Shown here: positions 42,823-48,130 of the stretch, piece after piece
Numbering within the stretch: the stretch's first letter is position 1
Layout: the number at the start of each line of letters is the position of its first letter
Source: Streptomyces griseus
GTDB taxonomy: Bacteria > Actinomycetota > Actinomycetes > Streptomycetales > Streptomycetaceae
Direction of reading: 5' to 3'
Assembly (NCBI RefSeq): GCF_001715295.1
Contig: NZ_MDKB01000001.1
Span: forward strand, 67,345-131,344
Length of the DNA: 64,000 nucleotides
Program-made: the position numbers and the translations under genes
Notes under the pieces: model-generated
The model's input: the letters and a program-made list of their open reading frames with translations, nothing else
Told to the model about the DNA's origin: nothing
Database searches by the model: none

Positions 42823-43500
42823 TCAGGAGCCCGTGGACCAGGTGTAGCGGTGCTCCGGGCGGCCGGTCTCGCCGTACCGCAGGGTCAGACGCACGCGGCC
42901 GGTGCGTTCGAGCAGTTTCAGATAGCGCTGGGCCGTCTGCCGGCTCATCCCGGCGCTCTCCGCGATCTCCTGCGCCGAGAGCGGTCCGCCGGCGGCGCGC
43001 AGGGCCTGACGCACGAGCTCGGCGGTCGTCGCCGAATGCCCCTTGGGCAGGCCGGAGCCGGCCGTCGACCACAGGGCGCCGAACAGCCGGTCCACCTCCG
43101 GCTGCTCGGCCTCCCCGCCGGACTCGAAGGTGTGGCGCAGCGCCGCGTACGCCTCCAGCTTGGTGCGGAGCCCGGCGAAGGCGAAGGGCTTCACGAGGTA
43201 CTGGAGTGCTCCGTGGCGCATCGCCGCCTGCACGGTCGCGACATCGCGTGCCGCCGTCACCATGATGACGTCGCCGGGATGCCCGGACCCCCGCAGCTCC
43301 CGCACCACGGCCAGGCCGTCGCGGTCCGGCAGGTAGTAGTCCAGCAGGATCAGGTGGACGGGCAGCTCGGCGGCCCTGGCGAGGGCGTCGGCGGCGGAGT
43401 GGGCCAGGGCGGCCACCCTGAAGCCGGGCACCTTGGACACGTAGGCCGCGTTGATCTGTGCGACCCGCACGTCGTCGTCCACGACCAGGACCTCGATCAC
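42823..43500 (-). CDS. response regulator of the CitB/DcuR type
   Basis: 225 residues. A receiver domain has VDDD near the start, the phospho-acceptor D54 in LILLDYYLPDRDG, a Thr in VTAA and the Lys in LVKPFAF. The C-terminal part contains a helix-turn-helix (AQEIAESAGMSRQTAQRYLK) as in CitB/DpiA regulators of C4-dicarboxylate and citrate genes. Its ATG overlaps the kinase stop by 4 bp. The neighbouring citrate synthase genes make citrate or a related acid the likely signal. Confidence 0.92.
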   Translation of the reverse strand: MIEVLVVDDDVRVAQINAAYVSKVPGFRVAALAHSAADALARAAELPVHLILLDYYLPDRDGLAVVRELRGSGHPGDVIMVTAARDVATVQAAMRHGALQYLVKPFAFAGLRTKLEAYAALRHTFESGGEAEQPEVDRLFGALWSTAGSGLPKGHSATTAELVRQALRAAGGPLSAQEIAESAGMSRQTAQRYLKLLERTGRVRLTLRYGETGRPEHRYTWSTGS

Positions 43501-45233
43501 GGGGTTTCTCCTGACGTCGTCGGGCCCATGGGTCCGGTCCGGCTGTCCCGTGCTCCCGCGGGCGAAGCGGTCGCGGGCCCGTCACCCCGTGGTCCCACCG
43601 GCCGGCCGGGCGAGGCGGGTTCGTCCAGCGCCTCCGGGAGGACGACGGTGAACACCGCACCTGTGCCGGGTGCGTCCGCCACGGACACACGGCCACCCTG
43701 CCGCTCCGCGAGCCGCCGCACCAGCGGCAGCCCCAGGCCGCGTTTTCCGTGGGCCGGCAGCTCCTTGGTCGACCAGCCCTCCAGGAAGATCGACTCCTGG
43801 CGGGCGGCCGGTACGCCCGGCCCGCTGTCCTGCACGCGCAGCACCACGGTACGGCCCTCGGCCCGCAGGCCCACCTCGATCCGGGCCTCCGTCGTCCCCG
43901 CGGCCGCGTCCAGTGCGTTGTCCACCAGGTTGCCGACCACCGTGACAAGGCCCCGCGGGTCCACCAGCCTGTCCGGCAGCAGCGTTCCAGGAGCCATACG
44001 CAGCGCCACACCGCGCTCGGCGGCCACCGTCGCCTTGCCGACGAGCAGCGCCGCCAGCAGCGGGTCGTGGACCTTCTCGGTGACCTGTTCGGCCGTGGCC
44101 CGGTGGACCCCCACCACCTCGGTGACGAACTCCCTTGCGTCCTCGTGCATCTCCAGCTCCAGCAGCCCGAGAAGGGTGTGCAACCGGTTGGCGTGTTCGT
44201 GGTCCTGCGCGCGGAGCGCGTCGATGAGGCCACGGGTCGAGTCGAGTTCGCGGCCGAGGTACTCGAGCTCCGTGCGGTCGCGCAGGGTCGCCACGGCCCC
44301 GCCGTCGTCGGTCGGCATCCGGTTGGCCAGCAGCACACGGCTGCCGCACACCGTGACGAGGTCCTCGCCGATGACCCGGCCGGCCAGCACGTCGGCGGTC
44401 CGGCCGGGTCCCAGAGCCTCCTCGAGCGGGGTGCCGGCCGCGTCGGGCCCCAGCCCGAGCAGGCGCTGCGCCTCGTCGTTCAGCAGCCGGATCCGGCCCT
44501 TCCGATCGAGGGCGACGACCCCCTCGCGAATGCTGTGGAGCATGGCTTCACGTTCCGTCAGCAGCGCCGAGATGTCGGAGAACGCCAGGTCGTGGGTCTG
44601 ACGCTGGAGACGGCGGGAGATCAGGTAGGCGGCCAGCGCCCCCACGGCCAGTGCTCCGCCCGCATACGCGAGCAGTCCGGGGATCGCCGCGAGGAGCCGG
44701 GCGCGGACGCTGTCGTACGCGATCCCGACCGAGACGGCGCCGACGATGCGGCCCGTCTCGTCGCGCAGCGGTACCTTGCCGCGGGCCGAGCGTCCGAGCG
44801 TGCCGCTGTCGATCTCCATGACGGTCCGGCCGGCGAGCGCCGTACTGGGGTCGGTGGAGACCTTCCTGCCGATCCGGGCCGCGTCCGTGTGCGACCAGCG
44901 CACCCCGCGCTTGTCCATGATCACCACGTACTCGGCCCCGGTGGACCGCCTGATCCGCTCTGCCGCGTCCTGGACGACGCCGTCGGGGGAGGGGGCGGTG
45001 GTGAGCACCGCCCGGGCGAGCCGGGGCTGCGCCGCCGTGCTCTGCGCGATCGCCAGGGCGCGGCGCATGGCCTGGTCGTCGAGCTGGGCGCTGAGCGGTG
45101 CCAGGAAGAGGCCGGTGACCAGGACCGTGACGCCGGTGATGATGGCCAGTTGCATCAGCAGGACCTGGGAGAAGACCCGCTTCGGCCAGCCGATCCGGCG
45201 CGGTCCCCGCGGAGTGGTCGGTGGGGCGCTCAT
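43497..45233 (-). CDS. sensor histidine kinase of the CitA/DcuS type
   Basis: 578 residues. Two transmembrane helices (about 22-46 and 183-205) flank an extracytoplasmic Cache/PAS-like sensor with YVVIMDKRGVRWSHTDAARI and VPLRDETGRIVGAVSVGI, the blocks that bind carboxylates in this family. A cytoplasmic PAS domain, the phospho-histidine H345 in AQDHEHANRLHTLLGL and a HATPase domain (NLVDNALDAA, DSGPGVP, GKRGLGLPLV) follow. It overlaps the regulator gene and is probably the first gene of the pair. A long Gly/Pro tail follows the ATPase. Confidence 0.93.
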   Translation of the reverse strand: MSAPPTTPRGPRRIGWPKRVFSQVLLMQLAIITGVTVLVTGLFLAPLSAQLDDQAMRRALAIAQSTAAQPRLARAVLTTAPSPDGVVQDAAERIRRSTGAEYVVIMDKRGVRWSHTDAARIGRKVSTDPSTALAGRTVMEIDSGTLGRSARGKVPLRDETGRIVGAVSVGIAYDSVRARLLAAIPGLLAYAGGALAVGALAAYLISRRLQRQTHDLAFSDISALLTEREAMLHSIREGVVALDRKGRIRLLNDEAQRLLGLGPDAAGTPLEEALGPGRTADVLAGRVIGEDLVTVCGSRVLLANRMPTDDGGAVATLRDRTELEYLGRELDSTRGLIDALRAQDHEHANRLHTLLGLLELEMHEDAREFVTEVVGVHRATAEQVTEKVHDPLLAALLVGKATVAAERGVALRMAPGTLLPDRLVDPRGLVTVVGNLVDNALDAAAGTTEARIEVGLRAEGRTVVLRVQDSGPGVPAARQESIFLEGWSTKELPAHGKRGLGLPLVRRLAERQGGRVSVADAPGTGAVFTVVLPEALDEPASPGRPVGPRGDGPATASPAGARDSRTGPMGPTTSGETP

Positions 45234-45495
45234 CGTACGAACGGTAAGCGGAAATCCACGCTTCCCGAAATTCCGGTCGGCCAGGCACGCTCGTGCGGGG
45301 CGCCGGGGCGAGCGTGGTGGGCCCGGACGCGACCAGGAGCCCCTGACCATGGTGCGCCGGCCCGTCGAGGCCATGGGCCCGGCCGGTCGAGCTGCGCGCG
45401 GTGCCGATCGGGGGCGTACGGTGCCGCCGGAGGAGCCGCCCGTCGGGGTGCGGATCCGCCGGCCGGCCGCCCGGCGGACACTCCCACGCCTGCCG

Positions 45496-46839
45496 CTAGC
45501 GGGTCACCCGGCCCGAGGGTGCGGAAACCGGCACCGAGGGGGCCCGGGGCGGTTCCCGTACGGGTTCGGGCAGGGGCCGCGGTGGCCGCGGTCCGGTGTA
45601 CTGCCCGCGGGGCCGCATCCGCAGCGGCCGTTCCCCGTACTCCTCCAGCGCGTGGGCGATCCAGCCCGCCGTGCGGGACACCGCGAACACCGTCTCGCCC
45701 GCCTCCGAGGGCATGTCGTACGCCACCGAGAGGACGGCCAGTGCCAGGTCGACATTGGCGTGCAGCGGTGCGTGGCGGGCGGTCGTGGCCACCACGTCAC
45801 GGGCCGCCGCCAGCGCCGGGGCCGCTCGCGGCACCTCCGCCAGCATGCTGAACAGCAGTCGCGCCCGCGGATCCTCGCCCGAGTAGAGCCGGTGCCCGAG
45901 CCCCGGTACCCGCCGGCCGGTACGCAGGTGATCGGCGACGACCGGGGCCGCGCTGCCCCGGTCCACGACCTCGGACAGCATGCGGTGCGCCAGCCCGCTC
46001 GCGGCCCCGTGCAGCGGTCCTTCGAGGACGCCGAGCCCCGCGGACACCACCGCGTACGGGTGCGCGTGCGCCGAAGCGGCGACGCGCGCCGCCAGGGTCG
46101 ATGCCGCCAGATCGTGATCGGCCAGCAGGGCGAGCGCCGTGTCCAGCACCGCCAGAGACGCCGCGTCGGCCGGCGTGCCGGCGAGGCGCCGCCACAGCAG
46201 ACCGGCCAGGGAACAGCCTTCCCCGGCCTCCGGGTCCGCCTGCGCTCCGGCCACCGGAAGCGCCCCGACCAGGGTGGGGATGAGGCTGCGCGCACTGTCG
46301 AGCACCCCTTGCGGGGAGAGGTCGAACCGCAGCGGGTCGACCGCTGCGGCGGCTGCGACGGCAGCCCGCAGCCGGTCCGTGGAGCTGCTGTGCGTGGGCA
46401 GCGCCGCGCCCACCCGCCGGGCCGCCGCGAGGGATTCCGGCGGGGCGGTGAAACGGGCCTCCGGGCGGAGCTCGCCGGTCCAGATCCACTCGGCGACGGC
46501 CTCGTAGCCGTACCGGCGGGCAAGAGCGGTCGCATCGACGCCGCGGAAGTAGTAACCGTCCGGCTCGATCAGCGTGATGGCGGTGCGGAAGGCCAGGTCG
46601 CCGGCAGTGGCAGAGGTCTCCCTGCGGCTCGTGCGCCCGGCCAGGCGCTCGACCTCGGCGGGATCGAAGGTGGACCCGCGCCCGCCGGGGGAGCGCCGGC
46701 TGCTGAGCTGCCCCCGGCTCACGTAGGCGTACACGGTCTCGGGCTTCACCCCGAGCAGTTCGGCCGCCTCCCGGGTGGTGAGCCTGCGGCCCTCCTCCGT
46801 TCCCTCCGGGCCGGCGCCGTGTGCTGCCTCGTACGTCAT
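45496..46839 (-). CDS. citrate synthase-family protein with N-terminal helix-turn-helix domain
   Basis: 447 residues. Residues about 18-70 form a MerR/excisionase-like DNA-binding helix-turn-helix (LTTREAAELLGVKPETVYAY) with a wing that includes SSRRSPGGRGSTFDPAEVERL. The rest is a short citrate synthase domain with all three catalytic positions: His in LEGPLHGAAS, His in GLGHRLY and Asp in HANVDLALAV. It therefore looks able both to bind DNA and to condense acetyl-CoA with oxaloacetate or a related 2-oxo acid. It is divergent from a second citrate synthase with a palindrome between. The ATG at 46839 is chosen; an upstream ATG at 46860 also fits. Confidence 0.9.
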   Translation of the reverse strand: MTYEAAHGAGPEGTEEGRRLTTREAAELLGVKPETVYAYVSRGQLSSRRSPGGRGSTFDPAEVERLAGRTSRRETSATAGDLAFRTAITLIEPDGYYFRGVDATALARRYGYEAVAEWIWTGELRPEARFTAPPESLAAARRVGAALPTHSSSTDRLRAAVAAAAAVDPLRFDLSPQGVLDSARSLIPTLVGALPVAGAQADPEAGEGCSLAGLLWRRLAGTPADAASLAVLDTALALLADHDLAASTLAARVAASAHAHPYAVVSAGLGVLEGPLHGAASGLAHRMLSEVVDRGSAAPVVADHLRTGRRVPGLGHRLYSGEDPRARLLFSMLAEVPRAAPALAAARDVVATTARHAPLHANVDLALAVLSVAYDMPSEAGETVFAVSRTAGWIAHALEEYGERPLRMRPRGQYTGPRPPRPLPEPVREPPRAPSVPVSAPSGRVTR

Positions 46840-46878
46840 GGCCCACACCGTATCCCTCATCGTATGCATCGATGGTTC

Positions 46879-46897
46879 ATATTGATTCAATCAATAT
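46879..46897. promoter_or_regulatory. 19-bp AT-rich perfect palindrome between the two citrate synthase genes
   Basis: ATATTGATT-C-AATCAATAT, perfect with one central base. Related half-sites (GTCAATCAA at 46911-46919, GAATCAAT at 46928-46935) follow toward the plus-strand gene. It is the most AT-rich site of the region and a natural operator for the HTH-citrate synthase. Confidence 0.65.
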
Positions 46898-46966
46898 TGA
46901 CACTCGCCGAGTCAATCAAGGACAGTCGAATCAATGTGCAACTCATCGGTGAAGGAGAGACCGGAC

Positions 46967-48130
46967 ATGCCTGCCTCGAGCACGGAAGCCGCCCCGATCG
47001 ACACGCCCCGGGGCCTCGCCGGTGTGATCGTCACGGACACCGCGATCGGTGACGTCCGCGGGCGCGAGGGCTTCTACCACTACCGGCAGTACTCGGCGAT
47101 CGAGCTGGCAGAGAGCCGCAGCTTCGAGGACGTCTGGTACCTGATGTTCCACGGCGAACTGCCCGACCGGGCCGCGAGTGCCGGCTTCGCCGCCCGTACG
47201 GCGGCTCTGCGCCGGCTGCCCCCCGAGGTGCGCGAGGCGCTGCCGGACCTCGCACGTGCCGGAGCCGTATCCGGTCCGCTGGCCGGCCTGCGCACCGCGC
47301 TCTCGCTCCTCGGCGCCTCGGCCGGGTTCCGGCCGGTGTACGACATCGACGCCGACCGCCGCCGCGGTGACGCACTCGCCGTCTGCGCCGCGGTCCCCAC
47401 CGTGCTGACCGCCCTGTACCGGCTCGGTCAGGGCCTCCGCCCGGTCGAGCCGCGCGACGACCTGCCGTTCGCCGCCAACTACCTCTACATGCTCACGGGG
47501 GAGGAACCGGACACCAGGCGCACCGCGGCCGTCGAGCGGTACCTCATCGCCACCGTCGACCACGGCTTCAACGCCTCCACGTTCACCGCCAGGGTGGTCG
47601 CCTCCACCGGCGCGGACACGGCGGCCTGCCTGGTCGCCGCAGTCGGCGCCCTCTCCGGCCCCCTGCACGGCGGTGCGCCCAGCCGGGCCCTGGACACGCT
47701 GGACGCCATCGGCACCCCCGACCGTATCGACGGCTGGATCCGCGAACAGGTCCTCGCCGGTGGCCGGATCATGGGTTTCGGGCACCCGGTCTACCGCACC
47801 GAGGACCCGCGCTCCCGCATGCTGCGTTCACTCGCCCAGGGCTTCGGCGGCCCGCTCGTCGACTTCGCCGTCGAGGTGGAGCGGCAGGTGGAGGCCATCC
47901 TCGCCGAGCTCAAGCCGGGACGTGAGCTCCACACCAACGTGGAGTTCTACGCCGGGGTCGTCATGGAGCTCTGCGGGCTGCCCCGCGAGATGTTCACCCC
48001 CACCTTCTGTGCGGCCCGTACGGTCGGCTGGAGCGCCAATATCCTGGAGCAGGCGGAGGACTCCAAGATCATCCGTCCGGCGGCCCGTTACGTCGGGCCC
48101 CCGCCCCCGCAGCCCGTACCCGCGCGCTGA
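46967..48130 (+). CDS. citrate synthase-family protein (citrate/2-methylcitrate synthase-like)
   Basis: 387 residues, start after GAAGGAGAG. The family motifs include His in SGPLHGGAPS and His in GFGHPVYRTEDPRS. At the position of the usual catalytic Asp (PNVDFY) it has Glu326 in HTNVEFYAGVV. The RG and C-terminal ARTVGWSANILEQ regions are normal. The role is condensation of an acyl-CoA with oxaloacetate; specificity is open. Divergent from the HTH version and 22 bp ahead of the CobW-type gene, with which it is probably co-transcribed. Confidence 0.92.
   Translation: MPASSTEAAPIDTPRGLAGVIVTDTAIGDVRGREGFYHYRQYSAIELAESRSFEDVWYLMFHGELPDRAASAGFAARTAALRRLPPEVREALPDLARAGAVSGPLAGLRTALSLLGASAGFRPVYDIDADRRRGDALAVCAAVPTVLTALYRLGQGLRPVEPRDDLPFAANYLYMLTGEEPDTRRTAAVERYLIATVDHGFNASTFTARVVASTGADTAACLVAAVGALSGPLHGGAPSRALDTLDAIGTPDRIDGWIREQVLAGGRIMGFGHPVYRTEDPRSRMLRSLAQGFGGPLVDFAVEVERQVEAILAELKPGRELHTNVEFYAGVVMELCGLPREMFTPTFCAARTVGWSANILEQAEDSKIIRPAARYVGPPPPQPVPAR

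Follow-up and report, generated by a model that had tools for sequence, protein, structure and literature searches.

The region analysed here, the window, is a stretch of 64,000 nucleotides from Streptomyces griseus. On its minus strand, it contains a gene (positions 45496 to 46839) for a protein of 447 residues, in which Pfam matches and an AlphaFold2 model place a DNA-binding domain and an enzyme domain on one chain. The longest minus-strand frame of this fusion gene, 45496 to 46890, begins with TTG, which is an unlikely start because it falls inside the operator palindrome described below. Orthologs have a TACGGT box, resembling a -10 element, about 7 nt ahead of an ATG; the equivalents in the window are 46847 to 46852 (minus strand, a putative -10 kept in nearly all Streptomyces loci) and 46839. 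Because the orthologs keep this arrangement (TACGGT-N7-ATG), the start would most likely be ATG 46839 on a leaderless message, and residues are numbered from this codon.

The N-terminal part of the fusion (residues about 19 to 73; 46621 to 46785, minus strand) is a winged helix-turn-helix (HTH) of the MerR/BldC-like type. It matches Pfam HTH_17 above the cut-off (6.8e-9, 36.3 bits) and exceeds the cut-offs of PF00376 (MerR; 31.1 vs 28.2 bits) and PF13411 (MerR_1; 27.7 vs 21.6 bits). The nearest solved structure by sequence is BldC, with a weak match (6amk/6ama, E 0.02), and the HTH scores far below the curated cut-off of the BldC family NF033787 (26.4 vs 77 bits); unlike the fusion, BldC is short, with 71-72 residues in its PDB chains, and has no enzyme domain. 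The C-terminal part matches Citrate_synt, PF00285 (4.9e-61, 207 bits vs a cut-off of 27), and its citrate synthase domain covers residues about 82 to 418 (45586 to 46596, minus strand). The AlphaFold2 model, built from 39 homologs, has a mean pLDDT of 90.9. Residues 22-73 form the winged HTH and residues 74-80 a linker of low confidence, and the citrate synthase fold begins at about residue 82. Aligned with VIA-align to citrate synthase 1a59, the model gave Z 37.0 and rmsd 2.5 A over 327 residues, and values for 2-methylcitrate synthases were similar. A long dimerisation helix of the MerR type is absent after the HTH in this model, where helix 60-73 leads directly into the linker.

Divergently from the fusion gene lies a second citrate synthase gene, citrate synthase 2 (46967 to 48130, plus strand; Pfam 2.4e-109), which most likely starts at ATG 46967 with the Shine-Dalgarno sequence AAGGAG at 46952. 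Of the four citrate synthase genes in this genome, two are at this locus. On the other side of the fusion gene are genes for a sensor kinase of the CitA/DcuS type (43497 to 45374, minus strand; sCache_3_2, PAS, SPOB_a and HATPase domains) and its response regulator (42823 to 43500, minus strand). From gene order and the literature, the fusion is likely the ortholog of S. coelicolor SCO5831 (citA3), and the divergent gene that of SCO5832 (citA4). Papers on these two genes, in the excerpts available, treat them as putative citrate synthases, and SCO5831 was reported to be more abundant in phosphate-proficient medium (PMC8981147). The available excerpts of the open-licence literature yielded no description of an HTH or operator for either gene.

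With positions set by alignment with solved enzymes, the catalytic and oxaloacetate-binding residues H242, H277, H316, R325, D364, R389 and R409 are kept in 97-100% of 138 fusion homologs, and mostly in the proteobacterial fusions too. The initial annotation, made from the DNA letters, had described a MerR-like HTH joined to a citrate synthase with its catalytic positions kept, and the Pfam matches and this conservation bear it out. A degenerate fusion enzyme was rejected on the same ground. Since every active-site residue is conserved, it is plausible that the fusion is still catalytically active, a trigger enzyme in the strict sense, and that a sensed ligand would be bound in its conserved active site. 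Full conservation of the catalytic residues could also mean a plain enzyme. We also observed that Glu takes the place of the catalytic Asp (NVE) in 136 of 136 partner citrate synthases, whether actinobacterial or proteobacterial, and in citrate synthase 2 of the window; the fusions keep Asp.

Between the two divergent genes lies a perfect 19-bp palindrome, ATATTGATT-C-AATCAATAT (46879 to 46897), which is kept in homologs and which we predict to be an operator. It occurs once in the window, and in the genome of 6.87 Mb no other place lies within two mismatches of ATTGATTNAATCAAT. It adjoins a putative -35 element of citrate synthase 2, TTGACA (46897 to 46902, plus strand), which also makes a third TTGA half-site; the resulting arrangement TCAAYRTTGA is conserved in homologs. 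Additional half-sites, AGTCAATCAA and GAATCAAT, are found at about 46910-46935, so that the palindrome and extra half-sites noticed in the initial annotation are both present. At 46910 to 46935 (plus strand) there is also a second conserved element, AGTCAATCAAGGACAGTCGAATCAAT, which aligns with the MtrA site reported for S. coelicolor in PMC12323332.

We surveyed 395 class-level genomes and found the fusion in about 64 of them, spread over some 13 families; Proteobacteria were sampled separately, through plasmid records only. All 56 genomes with citrate synthase 2 (G315 included) also have the fusion: 56 have both, eight the fusion alone, none citrate synthase 2 alone and 331 neither. In the one apparent exception to this co-occurrence, G252, the fusion sits at a contig end. 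The recognition-helix segment of the fusions is nearly invariant across overall identities of 36-79%.

The upstream DNA of 160 fusion genes was examined, and 33 representatives less than 65% identical to each other were scanned within 300 bp. The presence of the palindrome in orthologous loci had been suggested as a check, and it extends across three phyla, Actinomycetota, Pseudomonadota and Deinococcota: the core TTGA[TC]-N3..7-[AG]TCAA was found upstream of 28 of the 33 representatives, whereas 200 dinucleotide shuffles gave an expectation of 0.11 and never more than 2. For 24 of the 33, the longer form TCAAYNTTGA-N5..9-TCAA was found as well (expected 0). Operators were seen at the fusions of Tsukamurella, Nonomuraea, Deinococcus, Chelatococcus, Agrobacterium (including the pAt plasmid of C58), Azospirillum, Thioclava, Ensifer, Pararhizobium, Paraburkholderia and Caballeronia. 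Within the 300 bp, the operator was scored absent in five representatives (L141, L144, L208, L219 and L223), of which L144 seems to have one beyond the scanned stretch. Exceptions include Burkholderia cepacia and Paraburkholderia sprentiae, where the fusions sit 3' of a co-directional gene, as well as Cupriavidus oxalaticus and a second fusion copy in G361, and Comamonas antarctica has only half of the operator.

Within Streptomyces, 39 genomes were compared, 22 with and 17 without the fusion; these are related, and thus the following counts are not independent. The palindrome occurs in 18 of the 22 fusion-positive and in none of the 17 fusion-negative genomes (Fisher 1.8e-7). This distribution, together with a reversed-pattern control, led us to reject the possibility that the palindrome is a mere artefact of the -35 element. 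At one mismatch or fewer, ATTGATTNAATCAAT has 22 sites in the 39 genomes: 15 at the divergent pair, one at a second copy of citrate synthase 2 and six upstream of a CoA-transferase gene, with none at an unrelated place. The distal target is one and the same gene in the six genomes, for a CoA-transferase family III protein (PF02515, 2.4e-53). Its operator is centred about 24 bp or slightly more ahead of a probably leaderless ATG, and lies between the -35 and -10 regions of the putative leaderless promoter. A good site at the CoA-transferase was found in six of the 14 fusion-positive genomes with this gene, the other eight lacking a site there, and in none of 15 fusion-negative ones (Fisher 0.006); a weaker symmetric TTGACTGAGTCAA is present at the gene in two fusion-negative genomes (G057 and G302). 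Loss of the whole locus would explain the missing sites trivially, and for the pair it does so in part; however, 15 fusion-negative genomes still have the CoA-transferase and lack a good site at it. In one genome (G318; L168:3980-4035), a longer perfect inverted repeat, CTTCACTATGCAGT...ACTGCATAGTGAAG, encloses the CoA-transferase operator; this repeat overlaps the -10 region and is possibly the site of a second regulator.

The CoA-transferase was also met from another side. In two Azospirillum strains and in Comamonas antarctica, the divergent neighbour of the fusion is itself a CoA-transferase; the one of A. thermophilum is 42% and that of Comamonas 41% identical to the Streptomyces gene, along almost the full length of the latter. 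Two unrelated routes lead here to the same result in different phyla, and no other single finding argues as strongly that the fusion, the operator and the CoA-transferase belong to one regulatory unit. The CoA-transferase would thus be a further member of the regulon, beyond the view of the initial annotation.

Several natural rearrangements separate the palindrome from the fusion gene. In S. pseudovenezuelae, the fusion and citrate synthase 2 are now 2.3 kb apart, with the palindrome at the citrate synthase 2 end of the intervening DNA. In G209, citrate synthase 2 is split by an insert, which contains a complete citrate synthase 2 of its own under a palindrome promoter, 20 kb from the fusion. 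In two further genomes (G018 and G112), citrate synthase 2 and the local palindrome are lost, and a perfect distal palindrome at the CoA-transferase is kept. These four separations indicate that the palindrome belongs to the target promoters, rather than being the fusion's own. It had been proposed that the fusion controls both citrate synthase genes. Comparison strongly supports one part of this proposal, that the fusion HTH would recognise the palindrome and control the divergent citrate synthase; the part concerning its own gene fares less well, since the palindrome follows the targets in all four cases. Self-regulation is likely where both promoters share the site, and is not required. As for the split gene, citrate synthase 2 is interrupted after about codon 48 (..FYHYRQ) in G209 and G101 (L172-L176), and the insert resembles an integrated element; in G209 it measures about 115 kb and has a phage-type integrase gene nearby (PF00589, 1.7e-10).

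The partner of the fusion also changes between lineages. In some Actinobacteria and in Deinococcus, neighbours that are or look HMGL-like replace the citrate synthase (L132, L135, L136, L207 and L213). The divergent neighbour is HMGL/homocitrate-synthase-like by Pfam at L132 and in Deinococcus, and looks so at L135, L136 and in Nonomuraea as judged from the first residues. A search of PDB sequences with the HMGL-like partner returned isopropylmalate/homocitrate synthases, and it is possible that this partner is a Re-type citrate synthase or a homocitrate synthase. In Burkholderiales and Thioclava (L220, L221, L224 and L225), the fusion has a conserved operator and, as neighbours, genes for MFS transporters and 2-hydroxyacid dehydrogenases, a hint that other acids may be sensed. 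The exchange of partners, from citrate synthase 2 to HMGL-like synthase, CoA-transferase, MFS transporter or dehydrogenase, suggests that the branches may sense related acyl-CoA or keto-acid chemistry.

We propose, with a probability of about 0.78, that the fusion is a dedicated one-component regulator, in which a citrate synthase dimer would sense oxaloacetate, acyl-CoA or citrate and control citrate synthase 2, the CoA-transferase and perhaps the fusion gene itself. The domain structure, the conservation of residues and the conservation and specificity of the operator were computed; we infer from sequence and model the DNA binding itself, dimerisation, the ligand, the sign of regulation and residual catalysis. 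Citrate synthases are dimers that close on oxaloacetate. If the citrate synthase domain forms a dimer as other citrate synthases do, it would carry two N-terminal winged HTH heads, and these may bind the two-fold palindrome TTGA-N5..9-TCAA. A two-headed dimer would fit the two-fold operator, and closure on the ligand would be a natural switch. Oxaloacetate, acyl-CoA or citrate in the active site would alter the dimer and with it the DNA binding. Transcription of the divergent citrate synthase 2 would be set in this way, as would, in some species, that of the distant family III CoA-transferase gene; the fusion gene itself is probably under the same control. Repression fits the operator placement better than activation, since the operator abuts the consensus -35 of citrate synthase 2 and would sit in the promoter spacer of the CoA-transferase.

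One alternative is that the fusion activates citrate synthase 2, binding just upstream of the -35 element. Members of the MerR family often activate transcription, the HTH of the fusion resembles MerR, and the palindrome abuts the putative -35 without covering it. However, this -35 is already the consensus TTGACA, the CoA-transferase operator lies inside the promoter, and the MerR-type dimerisation helix is lacking in the model; we consider activation possible but somewhat doubtful. It is unlikely that the fusion is primarily an enzyme, possibly in a mixed complex with citrate synthase 2, in which the HTH would serve only for tethering or autoregulation. The conservation of all its catalytic residues would agree with this, as would the observation that no genome has citrate synthase 2, whose own catalytic Asp is replaced by Glu, and lacks the fusion; however, the fusion persists without citrate synthase 2, beside unrelated enzymes or with a distal operator, and the operator goes with the target genes and not with the fusion gene. 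Finally, that the palindrome serves another regulator (e.g., MtrA, GlnR or the neighbouring response regulator), the fusion HTH being vestigial or binding elsewhere, is very improbable: a CitA/DcuS-type two-component system does adjoin the fusion, and PMC12323332 reports that MtrA binds a site between SCO5831 and SCO5832 in gel shifts and that both genes are expressed more highly in an mtrA deletion, but in the alignment this MtrA site falls on the other conserved element and not on the palindrome, which is absent from the 17 fusion-negative Streptomyces genomes and tracks the fusion into Pseudomonadota and Deinococcota despite different neighbours.

The proposed regulator can be compared with known systems. 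The MocR/GabR proteins are also one-component regulators, in which an N-terminal HTH is combined with an entire enzyme fold that serves as the sensor, and GabR controls metabolic genes. However, their sensor has an aminotransferase fold and their HTH is of the GntR type, whereas the fusion has a citrate synthase fold with all catalytic residues and a MerR/BldC-like HTH; no GntR or aminotransferase family is among its Pfam matches. The fusion would therefore work in the manner of MocR/GabR proteins without belonging to their family. In BzdR, a shikimate-kinase-like enzyme domain was recruited to an HTH, according to PMC3602430, but both the enzyme family and the HTH are unrelated to those of the fusion. 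CitA of Caulobacter crescentus, a citrate synthase, has a regulatory role that does not depend on its catalysis; however, it acts on the cell cycle through CtrA, the regulation described is not DNA binding by CitA, and no HTH fusion was reported for it (PMC7083601). We found no HTH-citrate synthase regulator described, and no characterised member, in the open-licence literature. The fusions thus seem to form an enzyme-derived family of one-component regulators with a citrate synthase sensor, apparently uncharacterised.

Citrate synthase stands at the entry to the TCA cycle, yet the open-licence literature gave us no example of a transcription regulator with this fold as its sensor. We tentatively extend the proposal to all three phyla: the same protein would make citrate or a related 2-hydroxy-tricarboxylate, and the occupancy of its active site by oxaloacetate and acyl-CoA might switch the genes for the CoA-transferase and for other enzymes that form citrate, namely citrate synthase 2 and the HMGL-like synthases, via the conserved TTGA-TCAA operator. 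If the regulator model is true, proteins labelled 'citrate synthase' by annotation pipelines would need to be re-annotated as regulators. Furthermore, cells of Streptomyces, agrobacteria, Azospirillum, Burkholderiales and Deinococcus would read oxaloacetate and acetyl-CoA directly at promoters, and in Streptomyces carbon flux affects antibiotic production.
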